Below are positions 2,089 through 15,437 of a DNA stretch of 64,000 nt, piece after piece (the stretch's first letter is position 1; each line of letters starts with the position of its first letter). Below the pieces are notes generated by a model. The model saw only the letters and a program-made list of their open reading frames with translations, was not told the origin of the DNA and did not search any database. The stretch spans positions 62,001-126,000 of the forward strand of contig NZ_RHNZ01000008.1 in NCBI RefSeq assembly GCF_003946395.1, written 5' to 3'. Source of the DNA: Levilactobacillus fuyuanensis. Lineage in GTDB: Bacteria; Bacillota; Bacilli; Lactobacillales; Lactobacillaceae. A program made the position numbers and the translations under genes.

Positions 2089-3054
2089 TTATTGCAATAA
2101 ATTTAAAGTAACCAGTTGATACGATAATTTTTCATGGTCAACCTGCGTCTTGGATTTTTTGCCGGTCGCCGTCATCATGGTTGTCGTCGTGTGTCCGGTC
2201 ACGTGTTGGACCTTAGTCACGATCAGCTTGGTATTGGGGTTAAGCAGATATTCCTTCTCCCCATGAACCGTAGAGATTGGATCCAGATAGGCGCCGTGAT
2301 ACCCCTTGGGAAAGTTGATTTTGAGCAAAACTTGCGAGGTAAATTCTGTCGCAACCGCGTGACTGGTGCTGGTCGAGGCGAAGCCGGGATCTGAATACAC
2401 GGCTCCTGGCTTGAGGGCCTTCTGATGCAGTGCAAGCCGCGCAACCTTATTCGACGTACCTCGGTAGACGGTCATGGGATGAGTCAACTTGAATGTCTTG
2501 AGACTTGCCCGCAGATCTTTGACCCGTTGACGCGTCTTGGCTGTCGTTGCCCGTTTGGGATAACGTAGCGCGTTATTTAACTTATCGGAGCCATTGCCGG
2601 TATAGTTGCCAATGACCTTGATCTGACGCTTACTGAGCTTACCAGCCCACGCCTTGGAGCGCTTGACCAATACCCGATAATCGTGCTTGGTCAGCTTAAT
2701 GGCCCGGTTACTGTAGGTATAGCTACCGGTATCGGCAATCAGGAGTGACTGGGCGTTCCCAGGCACGGTCACCACCGTACCAGCGGCCGTGCATTGCACG
2801 ACCTTGAGTGCCGTATTCTTGGGAATCGCCACACTGACAGGTGTCGACTGGTCGGTAGGCTGCGTCAGTGCTGTCACTGCGCGGTTCGTAACTACCTGTT
2901 GCGTCCCAGCCGAGGTATTGGTCGACGACTCGCTGTCGATGTAGATCAGCTCGGGTGATTTGGCCTTGGCGCTCACCGGTAGTGGCCCCATTGTCCCCCC
3001 ACCTAATGTGAGTCCAGCGGCTACTAACCCTAATAAACGGGTAACTTTATTCAT
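2089..3054 (-). CDS. Secreted ADP-ribosyltransferase-like protein (R-S-E class)
   Basis: Start chosen at ATG 3054 because GAGGAGGAAATTTC precedes it and a signal peptide follows (MNKVTRLLGL..., hydrophobic core, cleavage near residue 30); longer in-frame extensions have neither. The protein is 321 residues. Its C-terminal half has the three marks of clostridial C3/VIP2/iota-type mono-ADP-ribosyltransferases: TVYRGT with Arg198, FASTS with the STS motif at 227-229, and GEKEYLL with the ExE pair Glu266/Glu268. These form the R-S-E active site that cleaves NAD and modifies a protein target. The N-terminal 160 residues match no family I recognise. No LPXTG anchor or translocation domain was seen, so the protein is probably released, with unknown target. 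No immunity gene is evident next to it. Confidence 0.8.
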   Translation of the reverse strand: MNKVTRLLGLVAAGLTLGGGTMGPLPVSAKAKSPELIYIDSESSTNTSAGTQQVVTNRAVTALTQPTDQSTPVSVAIPKNTALKVVQCTAAGTVVTVPGNAQSLLIADTGSYTYSNRAIKLTKHDYRVLVKRSKAWAGKLSKRQIKVIGNYTGNGSDKLNNALRYPKRATTAKTRQRVKDLRASLKTFKLTHPMTVYRGTSNKVARLALHQKALKPGAVYSDPGFASTSTSHAVATEFTSQVLLKINFPKGYHGAYLDPISTVHGEKEYLLNPNTKLIVTKVQHVTGHTTTTMMTATGKKSKTQVDHEKLSYQLVTLNLLQ

Positions 3055-3206
3055 GAAATTTCCTCCTCTGGAGTGAGCACCACCGGATTTCCCCGCCGGT
3101 AATGCGTCAATCCTCCGCTCATGAGTATAGCACGGTTGAACGCCCTTTGAACCATTTAGGGGCAAATTTAATTTTTACCCTGGTTATAGACTCATCACTA
3201 CCCACA

Positions 3207-4639: not shown

Positions 4640-4792
4640 CAGTCAAGATCCTCCCCAGGATTATGTCGTGTGATTGATACAGCCATAGTATACACCAGCT
4701 GACCACGCAATTACCGTATAAAAAAATAAATAACAGCCCCCAAAGATTCGGCCATTATTTATCCTTAGACGTTGTTGATTTACCAGGTGATA

Positions 4793-6352
4793 CTACGACT
4801 GCACGGGATGTTTAACCCAGCCAAATAATTGCCGTAATATCGTGAGTGACCGGCGAAAGGATAGCGTTCCCAAGATCAGAAATGCTGGTAAATATTGAAT
4901 CAGGTACCGACTCCGACCACCTTCAAACAGCAGTAAGAACATAAACGCCCCAATAATGGTGAGGCGCAGGACCTGAGTAAACTTGTGCTGATTGCTCCAG
5001 CCAAAGAAGATGATAACTAGCAAGACAATCCACCAAGCCTGCGCTAAATAGCGAAAATCACCCAATCGGGTCCCATACAAGTAGACAAATTCACGAATAC
5101 TGCGCGCAAATCCGGTGCCCTTGGGCTTCGTGCCGTGTAAAATAAAATGACCTTCCTTGATCCAGGCAAAGGACCCATCAGCGCTGTTATTGCGTTGTTT
5201 CTTCACCAAGAAAGCCAGATAGCCCCAAAATCCGCGTTGCTTTAGTCGTTTCAGATACATCTTTTTCGACCAATCCGCTCGCGATTTCTTCGTCGGCAAC
5301 TGGGCCATCTTCAGTGCATCCTTAGCGTTATAGCCACCATCCCCTGAAATCCCCATGCTCATGAAATGGACCGCTGGAATGGCGCGCGCCGTATTAATTT
5401 TAATGTAGCTCTGCGTGTCGAGAACGTGATTACCGGCAACGTAGGCACCACCGCCGGCCATACCACTGACTAAGAGACAAGCGACAACGATGAATCCTTT
5501 GCGTCGCGTCAGCCCCTGCCAGTATTCTCGGCGAACCACCTGAAGCAGTTCGACTAAAACAATGGCAATCAGGGCCACAATGGCGGAAGGTTTCATGAAG
5601 TACGCGGCCGCCACGTTTAGTCCTAAGCCAACTGCCGCCAGTAACTTGAGTGACCAAGGCCACTGGGCATAGCTCAGCACACAGTAACAGAAGATGTAGG
5701 CCGAGACGAACGGCAAGACCCAGGCATCGGTATAGGGCACGATGATCATGGGAAAGAGCGCCAGCCAACCGGCGTGAATGTACATGGCCGTTGGAACTTT
5801 GCGGTGGTCGATCACGGCAACGCTGAGGATATTGAATACGGCGGAGAGATCCGTCAAGATCAGTGTGGCCCAGTCAAAGAACAACCAAGAGGTCGTGTGA
5901 AAGGCCGTCGCTAACCAGTGTTGGGCCAATAGAATCGGCAAGTTGTTCGAGTTTTGACTAAAGTACGACATCATATCGGCATTCTTGGGGGCAATCAGAG
6001 CCTCATGAATGGCCCTCACATCAAAGCCAATAGCCGGATGCACGCACAACACAAAAACCACCTGCCAGGCAACGGTCAGCAATAAAAGCGTGCCCGCCGT
6101 CACAGCTTGGTGGCGAACGAAGAGCCATTTAAACACGCGTGACACCTGAGGATAAGCGAAACCCACGATCAACACGGTAATGGCCACAATGAGGACAATT
6201 GCTGTAACGACCGTTGTTTCGCTCCCCGTCTTGGCGTTGTCACCCAAAACCAAGTTGGCTGAGGTAATCGCGAAGTATGTGGTTAAGCCGAAGAAGAAGT
6301 AAAACAAGCCCCGAATGAATCGGTTACCGTAATTAAATAACTGATGGTCCAT
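4793..6352 (-). CDS. XrtG-associated polytopic membrane glycosyltransferase (TIGR03766-like)
   Basis: A 519-residue integral membrane protein with about 11-12 hydrophobic segments and a large loop around residues 320-410. The GT-C-like layout (first extracytoplasmic loop carrying VHPAIGFDVRAIH near residue 110, then many helices) and its position downstream of an exosortase and GT2 gene match the membrane protein known to co-occur with XrtG in Firmicutes. Such enzymes use lipid-linked sugar donors on the outer membrane face. It would be the last gene of the cluster, 75 bases after the GT2 gene. The family is named from context and topology; a profile search would settle it. Confidence 0.65.
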   Translation of the reverse strand: MDHQLFNYGNRFIRGLFYFFFGLTTYFAITSANLVLGDNAKTGSETTVVTAIVLIVAITVLIVGFAYPQVSRVFKWLFVRHQAVTAGTLLLLTVAWQVVFVLCVHPAIGFDVRAIHEALIAPKNADMMSYFSQNSNNLPILLAQHWLATAFHTTSWLFFDWATLILTDLSAVFNILSVAVIDHRKVPTAMYIHAGWLALFPMIIVPYTDAWVLPFVSAYIFCYCVLSYAQWPWSLKLLAAVGLGLNVAAAYFMKPSAIVALIAIVLVELLQVVRREYWQGLTRRKGFIVVACLLVSGMAGGGAYVAGNHVLDTQSYIKINTARAIPAVHFMSMGISGDGGYNAKDALKMAQLPTKKSRADWSKKMYLKRLKQRGFWGYLAFLVKKQRNNSADGSFAWIKEGHFILHGTKPKGTGFARSIREFVYLYGTRLGDFRYLAQAWWIVLLVIIFFGWSNQHKFTQVLRLTIIGAFMFLLLFEGGRSRYLIQYLPAFLILGTLSFRRSLTILRQLFGWVKHPVQS

Positions 6353-6427
6353 CCCGTTCTCCTCCCTTATTGCTTATTGGCCCAAGATAGCTGATACTAT
6401 TGCTACCATCGTATTGCCGGTTGCATC

Positions 6428-7777
6428 TTAGTTCCACTCACTGCCCTTTTTACTGCGGAGATAATGCACATCGTGATGAACAACGTGTTTCGCCTCGTGC
6501 GTTTCCGTTGAAAAGGTCGCCGTGTTCCAGACACCGGGTAATGACATTGAATTGATGACGCCCACTAGTCGAATCCAGGAAACAAAGAAATTATAGAGTG
6601 GCAGGGACCATATGACCCAACTGATGCTGCGATAAAATTTTCGTTCATTGGTGAATTTAGCCAGTAATCGACCTACGCTGACATAATTGACCAGCGAGAC
6701 GAAGACGTACAGGAGATAGATCACAATATACGATAACCCTAAGACGACGGGCGAATACCGGAAGAATAGCAACACGATACTAGCAAACATCCAGATCATC
6801 TTGGGAAAGACGAAGGTGTGATCGATAATCATGCGCCGAACCAAAAAGTTCTTAAAGAACTGGCCCAATTGCGCGTTCTGCTGCATGTATTGCTTGGAGA
6901 CTTCCAGCTCACCACGAATCCAACGCTGACGCTGCTTGTAGAGCTGTTCCAGTCCGGATAGCGGTTCAATGTAGAAGATAGCATCAGCACAGAGCATCAC
7001 CTTGCGCTTCAGTCGTTGCCGTACTTGAAAGGTCATATCGGTATCTTCGCCAACCGTATCTGTATTATACATAAATGTATCCAACAGGGTGTCCTTACGA
7101 AAGGCTGAGAACGCCCCCGACATCGTGAACAATTCGTTATTATCCGATTCAATCGTCCGTCCAGATAAGAAGGCTTGAGCGTATTCAAAATATTCCGTCT
7201 TCTGGATAAAACGCAGCCAGCGGTCCTTGGTGCGTTTGATCTGATACCGTTGGGTGAGGATTGTTCCCGTCATGGCGGCCAGATCAATGTCGTTTTCGAA
7301 GTGCAGCACCATGTTCATCAGTGCATTCTGTTCCAGGACCCCGTCGCTATCAATATTGACGATATAGGTGCCAATACACTGATAGATGGCCCCGTTCAAT
7401 GCCTTAGCCTTTCCCTGATCCGTCTGAATGAACTGCATATTGAGATTGAAGTGATTCTGTGCTCGGGCAAAGGAACTAAAACTATCATCGGTACTCTGAT
7501 TATCGGCCAGCACGATCTGCATACTATCATTGGGATACGTGGAGTCATTGATCGACTGCAGGCACGCAAAAAGCGTATCCTCAGAATTGTAGACTGGCAC
7601 GATAATTGAGATAAAGGGTAATTTAGCCGGCGCGGAAAGATCCTTCATGTGCCGACTTTGACGCATCAAATGAAACGCCGAGATCAGCGATGGGATGATT
7701 TCAACAACAATGGGAATCAGGGCCCAGGTAATCCAAAAGCCCATTTGCGTTAGCGTTAAATTAATAAAGTAATTCAC
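6428..7777 (-). CDS. XrtG-associated GT2 glycosyltransferase (TIGR03111-like)
   Basis: A 449-residue processive-type GT2 enzyme. A membrane segment (residues 5-35) is followed by the GT-A domain: VPVYNSEDT at 60-68, DSD at 143-145, acid motif GEDTD at 243-247, and the QRQRW product-site motif at 282-286. Three or more membrane helices follow (about 310-420). The ED/QxxRW set is the hallmark of cellulose/hyaluronan synthase-like enzymes. The stop-to-start gap from the exosortase gene is six bases, so the two are translationally coupled. Established co-occurrence of this GT with exosortase G supports a role in making a glycan linked to the sorted proteins; the sugar is unknown. Confidence 0.85.
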   Translation of the reverse strand: MNYFINLTLTQMGFWITWALIPIVVEIIPSLISAFHLMRQSRHMKDLSAPAKLPFISIIVPVYNSEDTLFACLQSINDSTYPNDSMQIVLADNQSTDDSFSSFARAQNHFNLNMQFIQTDQGKAKALNGAIYQCIGTYIVNIDSDGVLEQNALMNMVLHFENDIDLAAMTGTILTQRYQIKRTKDRWLRFIQKTEYFEYAQAFLSGRTIESDNNELFTMSGAFSAFRKDTLLDTFMYNTDTVGEDTDMTFQVRQRLKRKVMLCADAIFYIEPLSGLEQLYKQRQRWIRGELEVSKQYMQQNAQLGQFFKNFLVRRMIIDHTFVFPKMIWMFASIVLLFFRYSPVVLGLSYIVIYLLYVFVSLVNYVSVGRLLAKFTNERKFYRSISWVIWSLPLYNFFVSWIRLVGVINSMSLPGVWNTATFSTETHEAKHVVHHDVHYLRSKKGSEWN

Positions 7778-7783
7778 GAATGG

Positions 7784-8380
7784 TTACCCTCTCGAAAAGC
7801 GTCGTTTGAAATTGGCATAGAGACTCTGCGACAATTGCGAATAGGTAAAAACATTGTAATACAGCATGATGACCAACACGTAGAAGACAATTCGGCCAAG
7901 AAGCGTGTGTGCCATAAAGTACCAACCGGCACCCCCGAAGTAGACCAACGAGACGACCAACATCAAGCGAATCACATTGGACAGGTAGATCCACAGGGCC
8001 CCCATGACCAAGTAAAACACCTTCTCTTGACGACTATACGTCGGGAAGAAGGCTAAGAGCCCTACGAATGCCGTGGTCTCAATGATTCCGGAACATTCAT
8101 AGTCGATCGACATCGTCACGGGATTCGTGCCGTTGCCAATATAAACAATGCCGTACTTCGTGAAGACCTGACACCAGTGTGTTAAGTCTCCCAGCGTGGA
8201 CACACCATTGATGACTAAATGGGTCATAAACCACACCCAGTATGGGTTGCCCAACGTAATCAGGATAAAGAACAGGCCAACGCTACCCGCGATAAAGTAA
8301 TACGCGGAAAGGTGGGCCCGTTTTAACACCGAAATAACGTAGAGCCACCCAATAATACCTAATAACAGGTAGCTACTCAT
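7784..8380 (-). CDS. xrtG: Exosortase G (XrtG), Gram-positive exosortase family
   Basis: A 198-residue protein with about six membrane helices. The exosortase/archaeosortase catalytic triad is visible: Cys96 in YECSGI, Arg138 in SNVIRL and His158 in AHTLLG, each at or near a helix end, as in XrtA and ArtA. These membrane transpeptidases recognise a C-terminal tripartite signal (short motif, transmembrane helix, basic tail), cleave it, and are thought to transfer the protein to a lipid or glycan. The gene abuts the substrate-like gene 8381-9073 with no gap and the GT2 gene with six bases. The short length fits the Gram-positive branch, which lacks the extra domains of proteobacterial forms. 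Confidence 0.88.
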   Translation of the reverse strand: MSSYLLLGIIGWLYVISVLKRAHLSAYYFIAGSVGLFFILITLGNPYWVWFMTHLVINGVSTLGDLTHWCQVFTKYGIVYIGNGTNPVTMSIDYECSGIIETTAFVGLLAFFPTYSRQEKVFYLVMGALWIYLSNVIRLMLVVSLVYFGGAGWYFMAHTLLGRIVFYVLVIMLYYNVFTYSQLSQSLYANFKRRFSRG

Positions 8381-9073
8381 CTAAGCATTCCTCTGTCTTT
8401 TCGATTTAGATTTTGTTTTGATAAATGCGCCAGTCCCCCCCAGTGCAATTACCATGCCGATACCGGCCAGAATGAAGGGACCCGTTGAGCCACCGGTTGC
8501 CGTCAGCGTTTGCGTCCCCAGGTTGGCATTCTTCATAGTAATCGTCTGTGAACCACCAGCGACCTTGAGCTCGCTCAGTGGAATTCTTGCTTCCATGATG
8601 TCATTGTGACCATTGGCCGTCTTGTAACGGTGAACCTTCATCGTCGCCTGACTGAGATCACCATTGCCACCATTTTCACTATTCCAAGCATTGACGGTCC
8701 CAGAAACTGTTGTGCCATCAGACAACGTCCCATCTGTCTTAAACGTCACGTAAAACGTCTTGCTACCAACGTTCAAGACATACCCAGCTGGCTGGAGGGT
8801 ACTGTACCCGCCACCATGCTCTGGTGACATGTTGAGATAAAAGTAAATGTTGTTATCATCCGCGACTAAGGACTCGCGCTTGATGTTGTAATCATCTCCG
8901 GGTTCCTTAACCTCGGTCATCGGCTTGCCAGACCAGTCGTCAAAGTTACCGTCGATAGTAATATCGTATTTATTTGTCGCTGTGCGATTACTGTCCGCGT
9001 TAGCCATCGTGGTACTGGTCCCCCACCAAAACGCCCCAAACAGGGTAACAATTAATAATATGGCTCTTCGCAC
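8381..9073 (-). CDS. Firmicu-CTERM-type surface protein, probable XrtG substrate 1
   Basis: GTG start at 9073 with AAGGAGGAATTA upstream. The 230-residue protein has a signal peptide (1-26), then a beta-rich domain opening ITIDGNFDDW (38-47), a pattern shared with substrate 2. It ends in a sorting-like tail: TGGSTG at 193-198, a hydrophobic helix to about 217, and the basic end KTKSKSKRQR. This motif-helix-basic order is what exosortases recognise. The gene directly abuts xrtG, so exosortase and substrate are made together. Function beyond surface display is unknown; the DGxFxDW domain resembles carbohydrate-binding or dockerin-associated beta-sandwich folds, an inference only. Confidence 0.8.
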   Translation of the reverse strand: MRRAILLIVTLFGAFWWGTSTTMANADSNRTATNKYDITIDGNFDDWSGKPMTEVKEPGDDYNIKRESLVADDNNIYFYLNMSPEHGGGYSTLQPAGYVLNVGSKTFYVTFKTDGTLSDGTTVSGTVNAWNSENGGNGDLSQATMKVHRYKTANGHNDIMEARIPLSELKVAGGSQTITMKNANLGTQTLTATGGSTGPFILAGIGMVIALGGTGAFIKTKSKSKRQRNA

Positions 9074-9402
9074 ACTAATTCCTCCTTAACACTGTCACAC
9101 CTGATTGTGCTAACCGCTTCTTACAGGCTCCGACTAATTACTGGTAACAATTACCTGTTAGCCGAAACCTTTGCCCACCATCATCAAAAGATAGTTTAAT
9201 CTGTTAGCCAATCATTATTCGCCTTTATTGTAGTCACTTTTTTACAAAATTTCTACTGATTTTCCATCATAACCGAATAAGTGTGACATTACTATAGGAA
9301 TTAGGACGTAATTATGGATGTAAGCGAATTAATTTCGATTGCTATCCCATTGCAACCGATTGTTCATTTCTGTTTGACTCCAAGTCACTCACCGAGCATT
9401 AT
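9074..9402. other. Intergenic region between the two XrtG substrate genes
   Basis: No gene-sized frame. It is AT-rich and probably holds the promoter of the substrate-1/xrtG operon; the best minus-strand -10 is TACAAT at 9227-9232, without a good -35. No strong terminator follows the substrate-2 gene, so read-through is possible. Confidence 0.4.
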
Positions 9403-10041
9403 TTAAGCCACTTTTCGCCGACGAGCAACCTTCACAACACCGACAACGGCAATCCCAAAGCCAGCCGCTACCAGGATCACACCACCCGTGCTCCCACCGG
9501 TCGTCGTCAAGGTGGCACCGCCAAAGGTAGCATCACTACTGGTCATCGAAATATTTTGACTCGAGGTCGCAACCACACCAAGATCACTCAAGGGTAAGCT
9601 CATTTCAACAATTTCATAGTTGCCGTGGCTATCCTTGGGACGTGAAATCATAGCCTGTGCACTGCTAATCGTCCGACCGTTGGCGCTAACCGTTACGGCC
9701 TTGGCCTTGCCGGCCCCAAGGCCTTTAGCTTTACTCAAGGCAATGCTGATGGTCTTGTCACCAACCTTCAATGAATAGCTGCTGGGCAATGACACAAATC
9801 CGTGTTTATTATCGTTAGGATTCGTGTTCATATAGAAGTAAACGGTGCTATCATCCGCCACGAGTGAGGCTTTAGCATCTCCGTCCAGATTCGTCATCGG
9901 CTTGTCACTCCAGTCGCTAAAATCACCATCAATACTGATGTTCAACTTGCTACTAGTCGTTGCCGCTCGTGCGGTAGTGGCTGCACTGCCGATCCAAACA
10001 AGGCTTACACAAGTTAGCAGAATCCAAAATGCCTTACGCAT
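9403..10041 (-). CDS. Firmicu-CTERM-type surface protein, probable XrtG substrate 2
   Basis: Start ATG at 10041, seven bases after GGAGGAGATTTCT; an ATG 15 bases further up is inside the ribosome-site region. The 212-residue product has a signal peptide (1-26), the same opening NISIDGDFSDW (34-44) as substrate 1, and SLVADDSTVYFYMN (59-72), which aligns with SLVADDNNIYFYLN of substrate 1. The C-terminus carries TGGSTG (181-186), a hydrophobic helix (187-205) and a RRRK tail. It is shorter than substrate 1 in the middle. It lies 329 bases upstream of the main operon and is probably also read from its own promoter. A paralogue made by duplication. Confidence 0.8.
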   Translation of the reverse strand: MRKAFWILLTCVSLVWIGSAATTARAATTSSKLNISIDGDFSDWSDKPMTNLDGDAKASLVADDSTVYFYMNTNPNDNKHGFVSLPSSYSLKVGDKTISIALSKAKGLGAGKAKAVTVSANGRTISSAQAMISRPKDSHGNYEIVEMSLPLSDLGVVATSSQNISMTSSDATFGGATLTTTGGSTGGVILVAAGFGIAVVGVVKVARRRKVA

Positions 10042-10270
10042 AGAAATCTCCTCCAATCGCCATCACCCAGCAATTCGTACATCGGCTCAAATATTTTGGC
10101 CACGTAATGGTTGCCTCAAGTGTACGCTGTATTTTTAACGAAGATACCCTCGACTTAAAGGATGTGTGTAAACATTTAAGCTAGTTTTAAGGTTCACCAA
10201 ACTTGTTCTCCTTATCCTTAAAATAGTCCTAAAAGTCTGCATCATTATCTGTCTTTTCCGCCCCCCCCTC

Positions 10271-14262: not shown

Positions 14263-14805
14263 ATGGACTACTTGCTCATTTTGCGTGGTATCAATGGCGG
14301 AAGCTACCATCAGATCAAAATGGCTACCTTGCGAGCTCTGTTAACTGCCGGGGGCCTCGTGAATGTCACCTCGTACGCCAATAGCGGGAATCTCTGCTTC
14401 ACCAGCGACCAGTCTCAACCGGCTTGTGAGCAACAGATTGCCACCATTCTCGGTACCAACTTTGACTTCCCTATCAACTTTGGTGTCTTCACCAAAACGA
14501 CTTTCCTTACTGAGCTTAAGCAGGCCCCAGCATGGTGGGGTAGTCCGGACAATCGCCAACACATGTGTCTATTCAAACTAAAAAATTACGCGGAGCACGA
14601 TGGCTGGCTTCGCGACCACCTGACACCAATCGATCAAGTAGCGACGACACCGCATCTTATTTTCTGGTCGGTCGTAGCAAGCGGTAATTTCCAGCATTCC
14701 TGGTATGGCCAAGTCTGGGGAACCGCCTTCTACGCTCAAACCAGCACGCGTAGCTATCGAACGACCCGTAGACTCTGGCAACTTCTACAAGAACGCACAA
14801 CATGA
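14263..14805 (+). CDS. DUF1697 family protein, copy 1
   Basis: A 180-residue protein with the DUF1697 start YLLILRGINGGSYHQIKM and the SYANSGNLCF block, ending with the KTSARxYxTT-like segment (QTSTRSYRTTRRL). It is a paralogue of the next gene. This copy has diverged in the conserved GGNHKVPM loop (here GGSYHQIKM). Function of the family is not established; cytosolic. Ribosome site AGGAGG at 14248-14253. Together with the next two genes it forms a plus-strand group. Confidence 0.8.
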   Translation: MDYLLILRGINGGSYHQIKMATLRALLTAGGLVNVTSYANSGNLCFTSDQSQPACEQQIATILGTNFDFPINFGVFTKTTFLTELKQAPAWWGSPDNRQHMCLFKLKNYAEHDGWLRDHLTPIDQVATTPHLIFWSVVASGNFQHSWYGQVWGTAFYAQTSTRSYRTTRRLWQLLQERTT

Positions 14806-14888: not shown

Positions 14889-15437
14889 ATGAACTATCTC
14901 TTACTTCTACGCGGCATCAACGTGGGTGGCAATCACAAAGTTCCGATGGCAACCCTGCGCGACCTCCTGACGACCGCTGGGTTTACGGCTGTGCGGTCCT
15001 ACATCAACAGTGGCAATCTGTTCTTCACCAGTGATCGTTCCGTTATGGACTGCAATGTTCTCGTTGCCCAAATACTGAACCGTAATTTTGACTTTCCCAT
15101 CGACTTTCGCCTGTTGACCCAGCCGGAGTTTCTCGCCGACCTCGCCCAGTCACCGACTTGGTGGGGTGCTGACAACACGCTACGTCACAACGCACTGTTC
15201 AAGCTGAACACCTATGACGAGGCTCATGACAGCTGGCTCGTCGACCACGTGACCGCCGACTATGACCAGGTGCTGATTACGCCCAATGTCATCTTCTGGA
15301 CCTCGACACTGCGGACCCATTTCAGCCGCTCGTTCTACTCAAAGATCATGGGCACCCCGTTCTACAAGCAGACCAGTGCCCGCAACTACAATACAACCCA
15401 TAAACTTAAACAAATTTTGGAGGAAACCAATGATTAG
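14889..15437 (+). CDS. DUF1697 family protein, copy 2
   Basis: A 182-residue protein keeping the family motif LLRGINVGGNHKVPMATLR (residues 6-24), followed by YINSGNLFFTSD, and QTSARNYNTTHKL near the C-terminus. It has the more canonical sequence of the two tandem copies, which share length and layout. Its last eight bases overlap the start of the deformylase-like gene, so the two are translationally coupled. Function unknown. Confidence 0.82.
   Translation: MNYLLLLRGINVGGNHKVPMATLRDLLTTAGFTAVRSYINSGNLFFTSDRSVMDCNVLVAQILNRNFDFPIDFRLLTQPEFLADLAQSPTWWGADNTLRHNALFKLNTYDEAHDSWLVDHVTADYDQVLITPNVIFWTSTLRTHFSRSFYSKIMGTPFYKQTSARNYNTTHKLKQILEETND

Follow-up and report, generated by a model that had tools for sequence, protein, structure and literature searches.

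The 64,000-nucleotide stretch of Levilactobacillus fuyuanensis DNA analysed here (contig NZ_RHNZ01000008.1, positions 62,001 to 126,000; hereafter the window) carries an XrtG system: two Firmicu-CTERM proteins (substrates 1 and 2), an exosortase family protein (XrtG), a GT2 glycosyltransferase and a polytopic glycosyltransferase. NCBIfam defines the system by five models (TIGR03110, TIGR03111, TIGR03766, TIGR04145 and TIGR03112). As shown in Table 1, four of these were exceeded in the window, at scores that are not due to chance; the window copy is without the fifth, TIGR03112, and has two separate single-domain substrates. The families that a preliminary description of this DNA had named (XrtG, TIGR03111, TIGR03766 and Firmicu-CTERM) were thus fully supported by the profile search, with scores far above the curated cut-offs. 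The locus is an ordinary member of an already catalogued kind, and one of two copies in its genome.

Table 1. Features of the XrtG locus in the window
Feature	Position	Strand	Scores and remarks
Substrate 1, Firmicu-CTERM protein 1	10041-9403	-	TIGR04145 151.7 bits (cut-off 50)
Gap between substrate genes, 329 bases	9074..9402	-	may carry a separate promoter for substrate 2-xrtG-GT2-GT-C
Substrate 2, Firmicu-CTERM protein 2	9073-8381	-	TIGR04145 216.3 bits (cut-off 50)
XrtG, exosortase family protein	8380-7784	-	TIGR03110 236.2 bits (cut-off 102.75); Cys96/Arg138/His158
GT2, PgaC-like	7777-6428	-	TIGR03111 630.8 bits (cut-off 363.95)
Polytopic XrtG-associated glycosyltransferase, GT-C-like model	6352-4793	-	TIGR03766 734.5 bits (cut-off 500)
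Possible intrinsic terminator closing the operon	4718..4762	-	hairpin then T run, by eye; absent from the motif-scan list

Reading and translation of the DNA bore out the coordinates, gene order, spacing, TGGSTG tails, IDGxFxDW domains and Cys96/Arg138/His158 triad given in that description. Substrate 2 abuts xrtG, the GT2 gene follows 6 bases on, and the gene of the polytopic glycosyltransferase (GT-C for short, after its model) follows 75 bases on. Substrate 1 was taken to start at the ATG at 10041, with GGAGGAG upstream; the mechanical open reading frame (ORF) begins earlier, at the TTG at 10056. The two substrates are alike, each with a signal peptide, one IDGxFxDW domain, and TGGSTG followed by a hydrophobic helix and a basic tail. 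Anchoring by an LPXTG sortase was considered and rejected: the tail matches TIGR04145, and the sortase-type model NF041528 reached only 10.8 bits (cut-off 30). Cys96, Arg138 and His158 were invariant in the 27 aligned XrtG sequences (27/27), and XrtG matched the NCBIfam exosortase/archaeosortase signature TIGR04178 at 59.5 bits. Among the proteins of the locus, GT2 alone reached a Pfam cut-off; XrtG scored 20.7 bits with the Pfam exosortase model (cut-off 25.7), and substrate 2 scored 15.8 bits with PF14683, a model of carbohydrate-binding-module (CBM)-like domains (cut-off 27). A scan for promoter-like matches in the locus region found 11 against 9.2 expected, which is chance level.

The host genome (2.72 Mb) holds a second XrtG system in two parts. 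A tandem-domain substrate, XrtG and GT2 lie at the start of contig C21 (L044), and a 6-pyruvoyl-tetrahydropterin-synthase-like (PTPS-like) TIGR03112 gene and a GT-C gene lie at the end of contig C53 (L045), where a GGDEF gene is also found, at a distance of 611 bases from the GT-C gene. Judged by gene order in relatives, this system has apparently been split by a contig break. The sole TIGR03112 match in the genome (C53:154067-154396) lies there, outside the window, in agreement with the earlier observation that the window contains no PTPS-like partner. The closest sequences to the window XrtG came from an uncultured Lactobacillus metagenome-assembled genome (MAG; 99% identity), Lactobacillus sp. 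HBUAS51381 (91%) and L. hammesii (90%).

The distribution of the system was measured in 151 Lactobacillaceae genomes and in a set of one genome per species (84,980 species) that yielded 206 related stretches, the best 80 of which were kept as related loci; some gene absences in these loci are contig ends. XrtG was found in 26 of the 151 genomes, and its partners followed it closely. The Firmicu-CTERM family occurred in 26/26 genomes with XrtG vs 1/125 others (that one below cut-off), and TIGR03112 in 25/26 vs 2/125. TIGR03766 was above cut-off in 23 of the 26 (it is split in G007 and G112 and absent from G020) vs 2/125, and in one of these two genomes (G019) the locus runs off the contig; below cut-off, relatives of this family are common, with some match in 76/151 genomes. 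Over the 80 related loci, GT2 was counted in 79, a substrate in 79, GT-C in 73 and the PTPS-like gene in 66. Moreover, GT2 lay within 40 bases of XrtG, on the same strand, in all 79 loci that have both. Hosts among these loci include L. plantarum, L. brevis, Enterococcus gallinarum, Oenococcus oeni, Leuconostoc, Clostridium guangxiense and a Coriobacteriaceae MAG. A contig from a methanogen MAG (Candidatus Methanovirga, L157) also bears a complete set, with a GGDEF gene, which looks like transfer or misbinning. Frameshifted, split or missing genes were seen in the systems L057 (G057), L052, L067, L069 and L073, including the GT-C gene of Oenococcus oeni. The two matched substrates stressed in the preliminary description are both present and appear less special in this setting: 41/80 loci encode one two-domain (tandem) substrate protein, and 9/80 have at least two substrate ORFs, some of which are split tandem genes.

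When the neighbouring genes of the 80 loci were clustered, 796 ORFs gave 14 recurring clusters, of which the top one was GGDEF (16 loci, 12 genus labels) and the second an ABC ATPase identified by eye (16 loci, 9 genus labels). A further partner common to all loci was considered; no neighbour cluster reached more than 16/80.

The window GT2 carries the motif residues D97, D143/D145, E244-D245 and Q282-R-Q-R-W286. Nine of these positions (D97, D143, D145, E244, D245, Q282, R283, R285 and W286) were identical in 102/102 distinct GT2 sequences, a count that, like that for the PTPS-like proteins below, left out short or low-scoring pieces. We take the D,D,D,QxxRW pattern to be the signature of processive synthases. 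The next best family of the window GT2 was TIGR03937 (PgaC/IcaA), at 127.2 bits, far below the cut-off of 422.3. From the processive signature, GT2 would be expected to polymerise a beta-linked, PgaC-like glycan. For GT-C, a model built from 60 sequences reached a mean pLDDT of 89.5 (two of the alignments, A4 and A5, hold 61 and 59 of 69 and 69 reference stretches, respectively, plus the window's own). Its top six Foldseek matches were ArnT, oligosaccharyltransferase and AglB chains (probability 0.85-0.99), with weak E-values of 8e-3 to 0.14 and TM-scores of 0.25-0.36; ALG3 ranked eighth and PMT lower, all with E >0.001. The predicted fold of the polytopic glycosyltransferase thus weakly resembles that of GT-C enzymes. 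In an Agathobacter MAG (L169:4226-7066), the XrtG-associated GT2 is fused to an LtaS/MdoB-like sulfatase-fold domain that is closest to phosphoglycerol transferases; this fusion would fit a decorated polymer. In a Limosilactobacillus MAG, a second TIGR03111-like GT2 directly follows the first (L167:10941-12296).

The AlphaFold2 model of substrate 2 (63 sequences, mean pLDDT 81.7) consists of a beta-sandwich and a low-confidence C-terminal helix. Foldseek placed CBM9 domains in the top two of 905 matches, at probabilities of 0.99 and 0.95, with weak E-values (7.7e-3 and 1.1e-2) and TM-scores of 0.32 and 0.30; the best CBM9 match was 7nwo. The model therefore points weakly to a CBM9-like fold for the sorted domain. 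In distant substrate domains (L085, L087, L088 and others; alignment A6), a D-x-N-x-N-G-x-Y-like loop is conserved that resembles a calcium site.

In the PTPS-like protein, H17, H29 and H31 were conserved in 86/86 sequences; by comparison with the PTPS family, we take them to be likely zinc ligands. Besides the window, 14 of the 80 related loci lack the TIGR03112 gene, some of them cut by contig ends. When seven genomes with a PTPS-less locus were searched (L155, L141, L109, L139, L132, L142 and L113, the last cut by a contig end), five had an above-cut-off copy; the copy in the L132 genome is broken, and the L139 genome has none. Loss of the whole function together with this gene was considered as an explanation and set aside: the window, L095, L096 and L097 are without the gene, and their close relatives L098-L101 have it. 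In distant Firmicutes the PTPS-like protein is joined with a large membrane domain (PF10131); in G266, G281 and G247, the end of this fusion (1,287-1,300 residues) is formed by a tailed Firmicu-CTERM-like domain (15.9 bits to TIGR04145 in G266, below cut-off). Before that domain lies a signal-peptidase-like stretch, recognised by eye, which may free the terminal domain; the fusion would therefore represent coupled production rather than a permanent link.

A second kind of fusion bears on the role of XrtG itself. In 10 loci from 9 distant genomes, a substrate-like domain without a sorting tail is fused to the N-terminus of XrtG. We regard it as the substrate domain because of its IDGxFxDW-like start, its position, and its resemblance to domains with tails in near relatives; in L086, the XrtG part scored 108.9 bits (cut-off 102.75) and the substrate domain only 15.5 bits to TIGR04145. 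The catalytic Cys is missing from 10/10 fused XrtG sequences (9 Asn, 1 Ser) and kept in 99/99 other distinct ones, a count that left out XrtG pieces of less than about 140 matched residues (e.g., the frameshifted G057 pieces). All 10 fused proteins retain the Arg, and the 9 that extend as far as the His retain that residue too (L201 stops short at a contig end). In the 9 genomes (G530 and G531 being only 67% and 88% complete), the substrate domain and the exosortase/archaeosortase signature each matched nothing but the fused gene; G521 has two fused copies. Family f22 also has unfused pairs with tail and Cys (L088 and L195-L198), and genus g250 has both kinds (G459 unfused, G527 fused). In a tree of 33 of the 109 distinct XrtG sequences, chosen by hand for breadth, the fused sequences formed one clade (support 95/87). 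Our reading of this pattern is that the Cys acts on the tail of the sorted domain, and that XrtG keeps a role for which proteolysis is not needed. The fused clade argues that the conserved feature is a domain held next to the synthase at the membrane. Sortase-independent anchoring, which the preliminary description had put forward as the function of the locus, is therefore one option rather than the conclusion.

A possible link to cyclic di-GMP (c-di-GMP) came from GGDEF genes. GGDEF was found in 24/26 genomes with XrtG vs 44/125 others (Fisher 7e-8, uncorrected for kinship and genome size). Around the system, GGDEF occurred in 17/80 related loci vs about 1.7 expected from its density, a comparison that is approximate: the loci of near relatives are not independent, the expectation rests on 72 hand-summed matches (weak ones counted) in 26 genomes of an estimated 58 Mb or so, and the observed count came from another model, which had been made from these same loci. 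In two Enterococcus loci (L143 and L144), Ligilactobacillus saerimneri (L171) and G112 (L067), the substrate gene has a same-strand GGDEF gene at most 111 bases away, and in a Streptococcaceae MAG (L161), GGDEF and EAL genes run into it. These neighbours hint at c-di-GMP control of XrtG systems. In the accessible text on the gts genes of L. acidophilus, a different PgaC-like operon is tied to c-di-GMP and exopolysaccharide (PMC6123363); such control therefore has a precedent in Lactobacillaceae.

Taken together, these data suggest, at a probability of about one half, that the locus encodes a regulated exopolysaccharide synthase whose carbohydrate-binding subunit, at the cell surface, is processed by XrtG. 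The computed basis of this proposal is the families, the conserved residues, gene co-occurrence, GGDEF proximity and the fused Cys-less clade; every biochemical step in it is inferred. GT2 would polymerise and extrude a beta-linked, PgaC-like glycan, as its processive signature implies. The GT-C-like protein, judged by its fold and by gene fusions in distant relatives, would add sugars outside the cell from a polyprenyl-phosphate donor, and a PTPS-like protein from the second XrtG system of the genome may help it in trans. Both Firmicu-CTERM proteins would be exported, held by the C-terminal helix, and carry a CBM-like domain. Cys96 of XrtG would cut at or near TGGSTG and transfer the C-terminus so formed to an acceptor that belongs to the machine, possibly an amine on the glycan or a lipid by analogy with archaeosortase A, and the sorted domain would thereby keep the polymer attached to the cell. 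Control of the output by c-di-GMP is probable. The preliminary description's idea of a glycan made by the locus thus gains support from the processive GT2 signature, the weakly GT-C-like fold and the GGDEF neighbours in relatives; its idea that the sorted proteins are joined to that glycan is conjectural for their C-termini. More tentatively, XrtG systems in general might be c-di-GMP-controlled exopolysaccharide synthases of which the exosortase is a structural member, with proteolysis serving only to fix the carbohydrate-binding subunit at the machine; the fused Cys-less clade, which keeps the rest of the active-site fold, would then be an exosortase turned non-proteolytic scaffold. This wider proposal is possible and somewhat doubtful.

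Several observations weigh against the synthase proposal. GT2 falls so far under the TIGR03937 cut-off that the glycan product cannot be named. Profile searches of PDB sequences found no relative of GT-C, of the substrate domain or, with the XrtG alignment, of XrtG; the best fold matches of the substrate domain and GT-C have TM-scores of 0.25-0.36 and E >0.001, and with TIGR04145 the substrate domains of distant loci reach 15.5-19.4 bits, below cut-off. No TIGR03112-like ORF was found in the window. The system of Secundilactobacillus oryzae (L135/G020) has substrate, XrtG and GT2 and is without GT-C and the PTPS-like gene, and these two are therefore not indispensable. As the fused sequences form a single clade, fusion and Cys loss count as one event, not ten. 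No GGDEF gene was found in the window, two genomes with XrtG (G010 and G145) have no GGDEF match, and the GGDEF genes might serve a gts-like operon instead.

Protein glycosylation would account for part of the same evidence: GT2 would load a polyprenyl carrier, GT-C would glycosylate the Firmicu-CTERM proteins outside the cell, and XrtG would release or anchor the glycoprotein, so that the glycan is not a free polymer. The nearest folds to GT-C (ArnT, STT3 and AglB, with PMT lower) belong to enzymes with polyprenyl-linked donors, several of which have proteins as acceptors, and the substrate family and XrtG co-occur near-perfectly. However, the QxxRW motif in 102/102 GT2 sequences, with PgaC as the next best family, is unexpected for a polyprenyl-phosphate sugar transferase; L135 keeps substrate, XrtG and GT2 without a GT-C, and fusion of the extracellular domain, be it with XrtG or with a PTPS/PF10131 protein, is tolerated. 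We therefore consider glycosylation unlikely. The processive signature also speaks against an archaeosortase-like anchoring in which XrtG exchanges the C-terminal helix for a phospholipid or glycolipid whose sugar head group is all that the glycosyltransferases make. No lipid synthesis was recognised among the 14 neighbour clusters, judged by eye from the first 70 residues only. In favour of such anchoring, XrtG matches the TIGR04178 signature shared with archaeosortases, and ArtA works with a lipid pathway in the available account of that enzyme (PMC7157517); overall, lipid anchoring seems improbable to much the same degree. Finally, XrtG might act as nothing more than a processing protease, shedding the domain into the medium, with the glycosyltransferases next to it through operon history. 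Direct evidence for any acceptor is absent, and PEP-CTERM proteins may be matrix components according to the accessible part of PMC9850573. Against this stand the adjacency of GT2 and XrtG in 79/79 loci and the fused clade, whose domain has no sorting tail of its own, could not be released in that way, and is yet kept beside GT2. Simple release thus appears very unlikely.

The proposed synthase may be compared with known systems. XrtG was reportedly described earlier by Haft and colleagues in 2012. Gram-negative PEP-CTERM/exosortase systems have many substrates per enzyme, unlike XrtG systems such as that of the window, where one or two substrates lie beside one enzyme. The two are alike in that exosortase-type sorting is linked with exopolysaccharide in the accessible parts of PMC1569441 and PMC9850573, the latter describing a PEP-CTERM protein with which released polysaccharide went down and bound polysaccharide up. 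Archaeosortase A of Haloferax volcanii is similar in being a membrane enzyme with an active-site Cys (Cys-173), substrates with a tripartite C-terminal tail, and acceptor-pathway partners, PssA and PssD (PMC7157517). That study describes PssA and PssD as taking part in ArtA-dependent maturation, with lipid attachment ceasing when PssA is lost; in Methanosarcina, the two genes are neighbours of artA. The partners of archaeosortase A are phospholipid enzymes, whereas the neighbours in the window are glycosyltransferases. PgaC/IcaA and the L. acidophilus GtsA-GtsB-PdeB set share with the XrtG system a PgaC-like GT2 and c-di-GMP genes nearby, and GtsA and GtsB are described as stimulating exopolysaccharide and biofilm in E. 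coli (PMC6123363, in part). The gts set differs in that the word "exosortase" has 0 occurrences in PMC6123363, and the window GT2 lies far below the PgaC cut-off.

In lactobacilli, the accessible part of PMC12854382 describes LP_RS09090-RS09075 of Lactiplantibacillus plantarum as a complete XrtG system, made up of one Firmicu-CTERM protein, Xrt and two glycosyltransferases, and its transcripts as over-expressed in interferon-inducing strains; the evidence there consists of transcripts, with no mutant or product. A glycosyltransferase table for Levilactobacillus brevis lists one "exosortase G system-associated" GT2 (PMC8951740). The passages covered of these two papers give no function for XrtG or Firmicu-CTERM proteins in lactobacilli. 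Our search, which left most subscription journals outside, found no paper combining exosortase with 6-pyruvoyl, and among papers on exosortase and c-di-GMP, judged by titles and the beginnings of abstracts, none concerned Gram-positive XrtG.

Elsewhere in the window, a secreted-looking protein with an ADP-ribosyltransferase domain is encoded at 2089-3165 on the reverse strand (PF03496, 101 bits; PF01129, 38 bits). On the forward strand, two adjacent and similar ORFs of about 180 residues (14263-14805 and 14889-15437), starting with MDYLLILRGINGGS and MNYLLLLRGINVGG, respectively, are apparently a tandem duplication.

XrtG systems occur widely among the lactobacilli of food and the gut. Given the processive GT2, the neighbouring GGDEF genes and a natural Cys-less fusion, the role of an exosortase in a Gram-positive cell becomes testable, and the comparisons made here point to a specific mechanism that is likely enough to merit a test at the bench.

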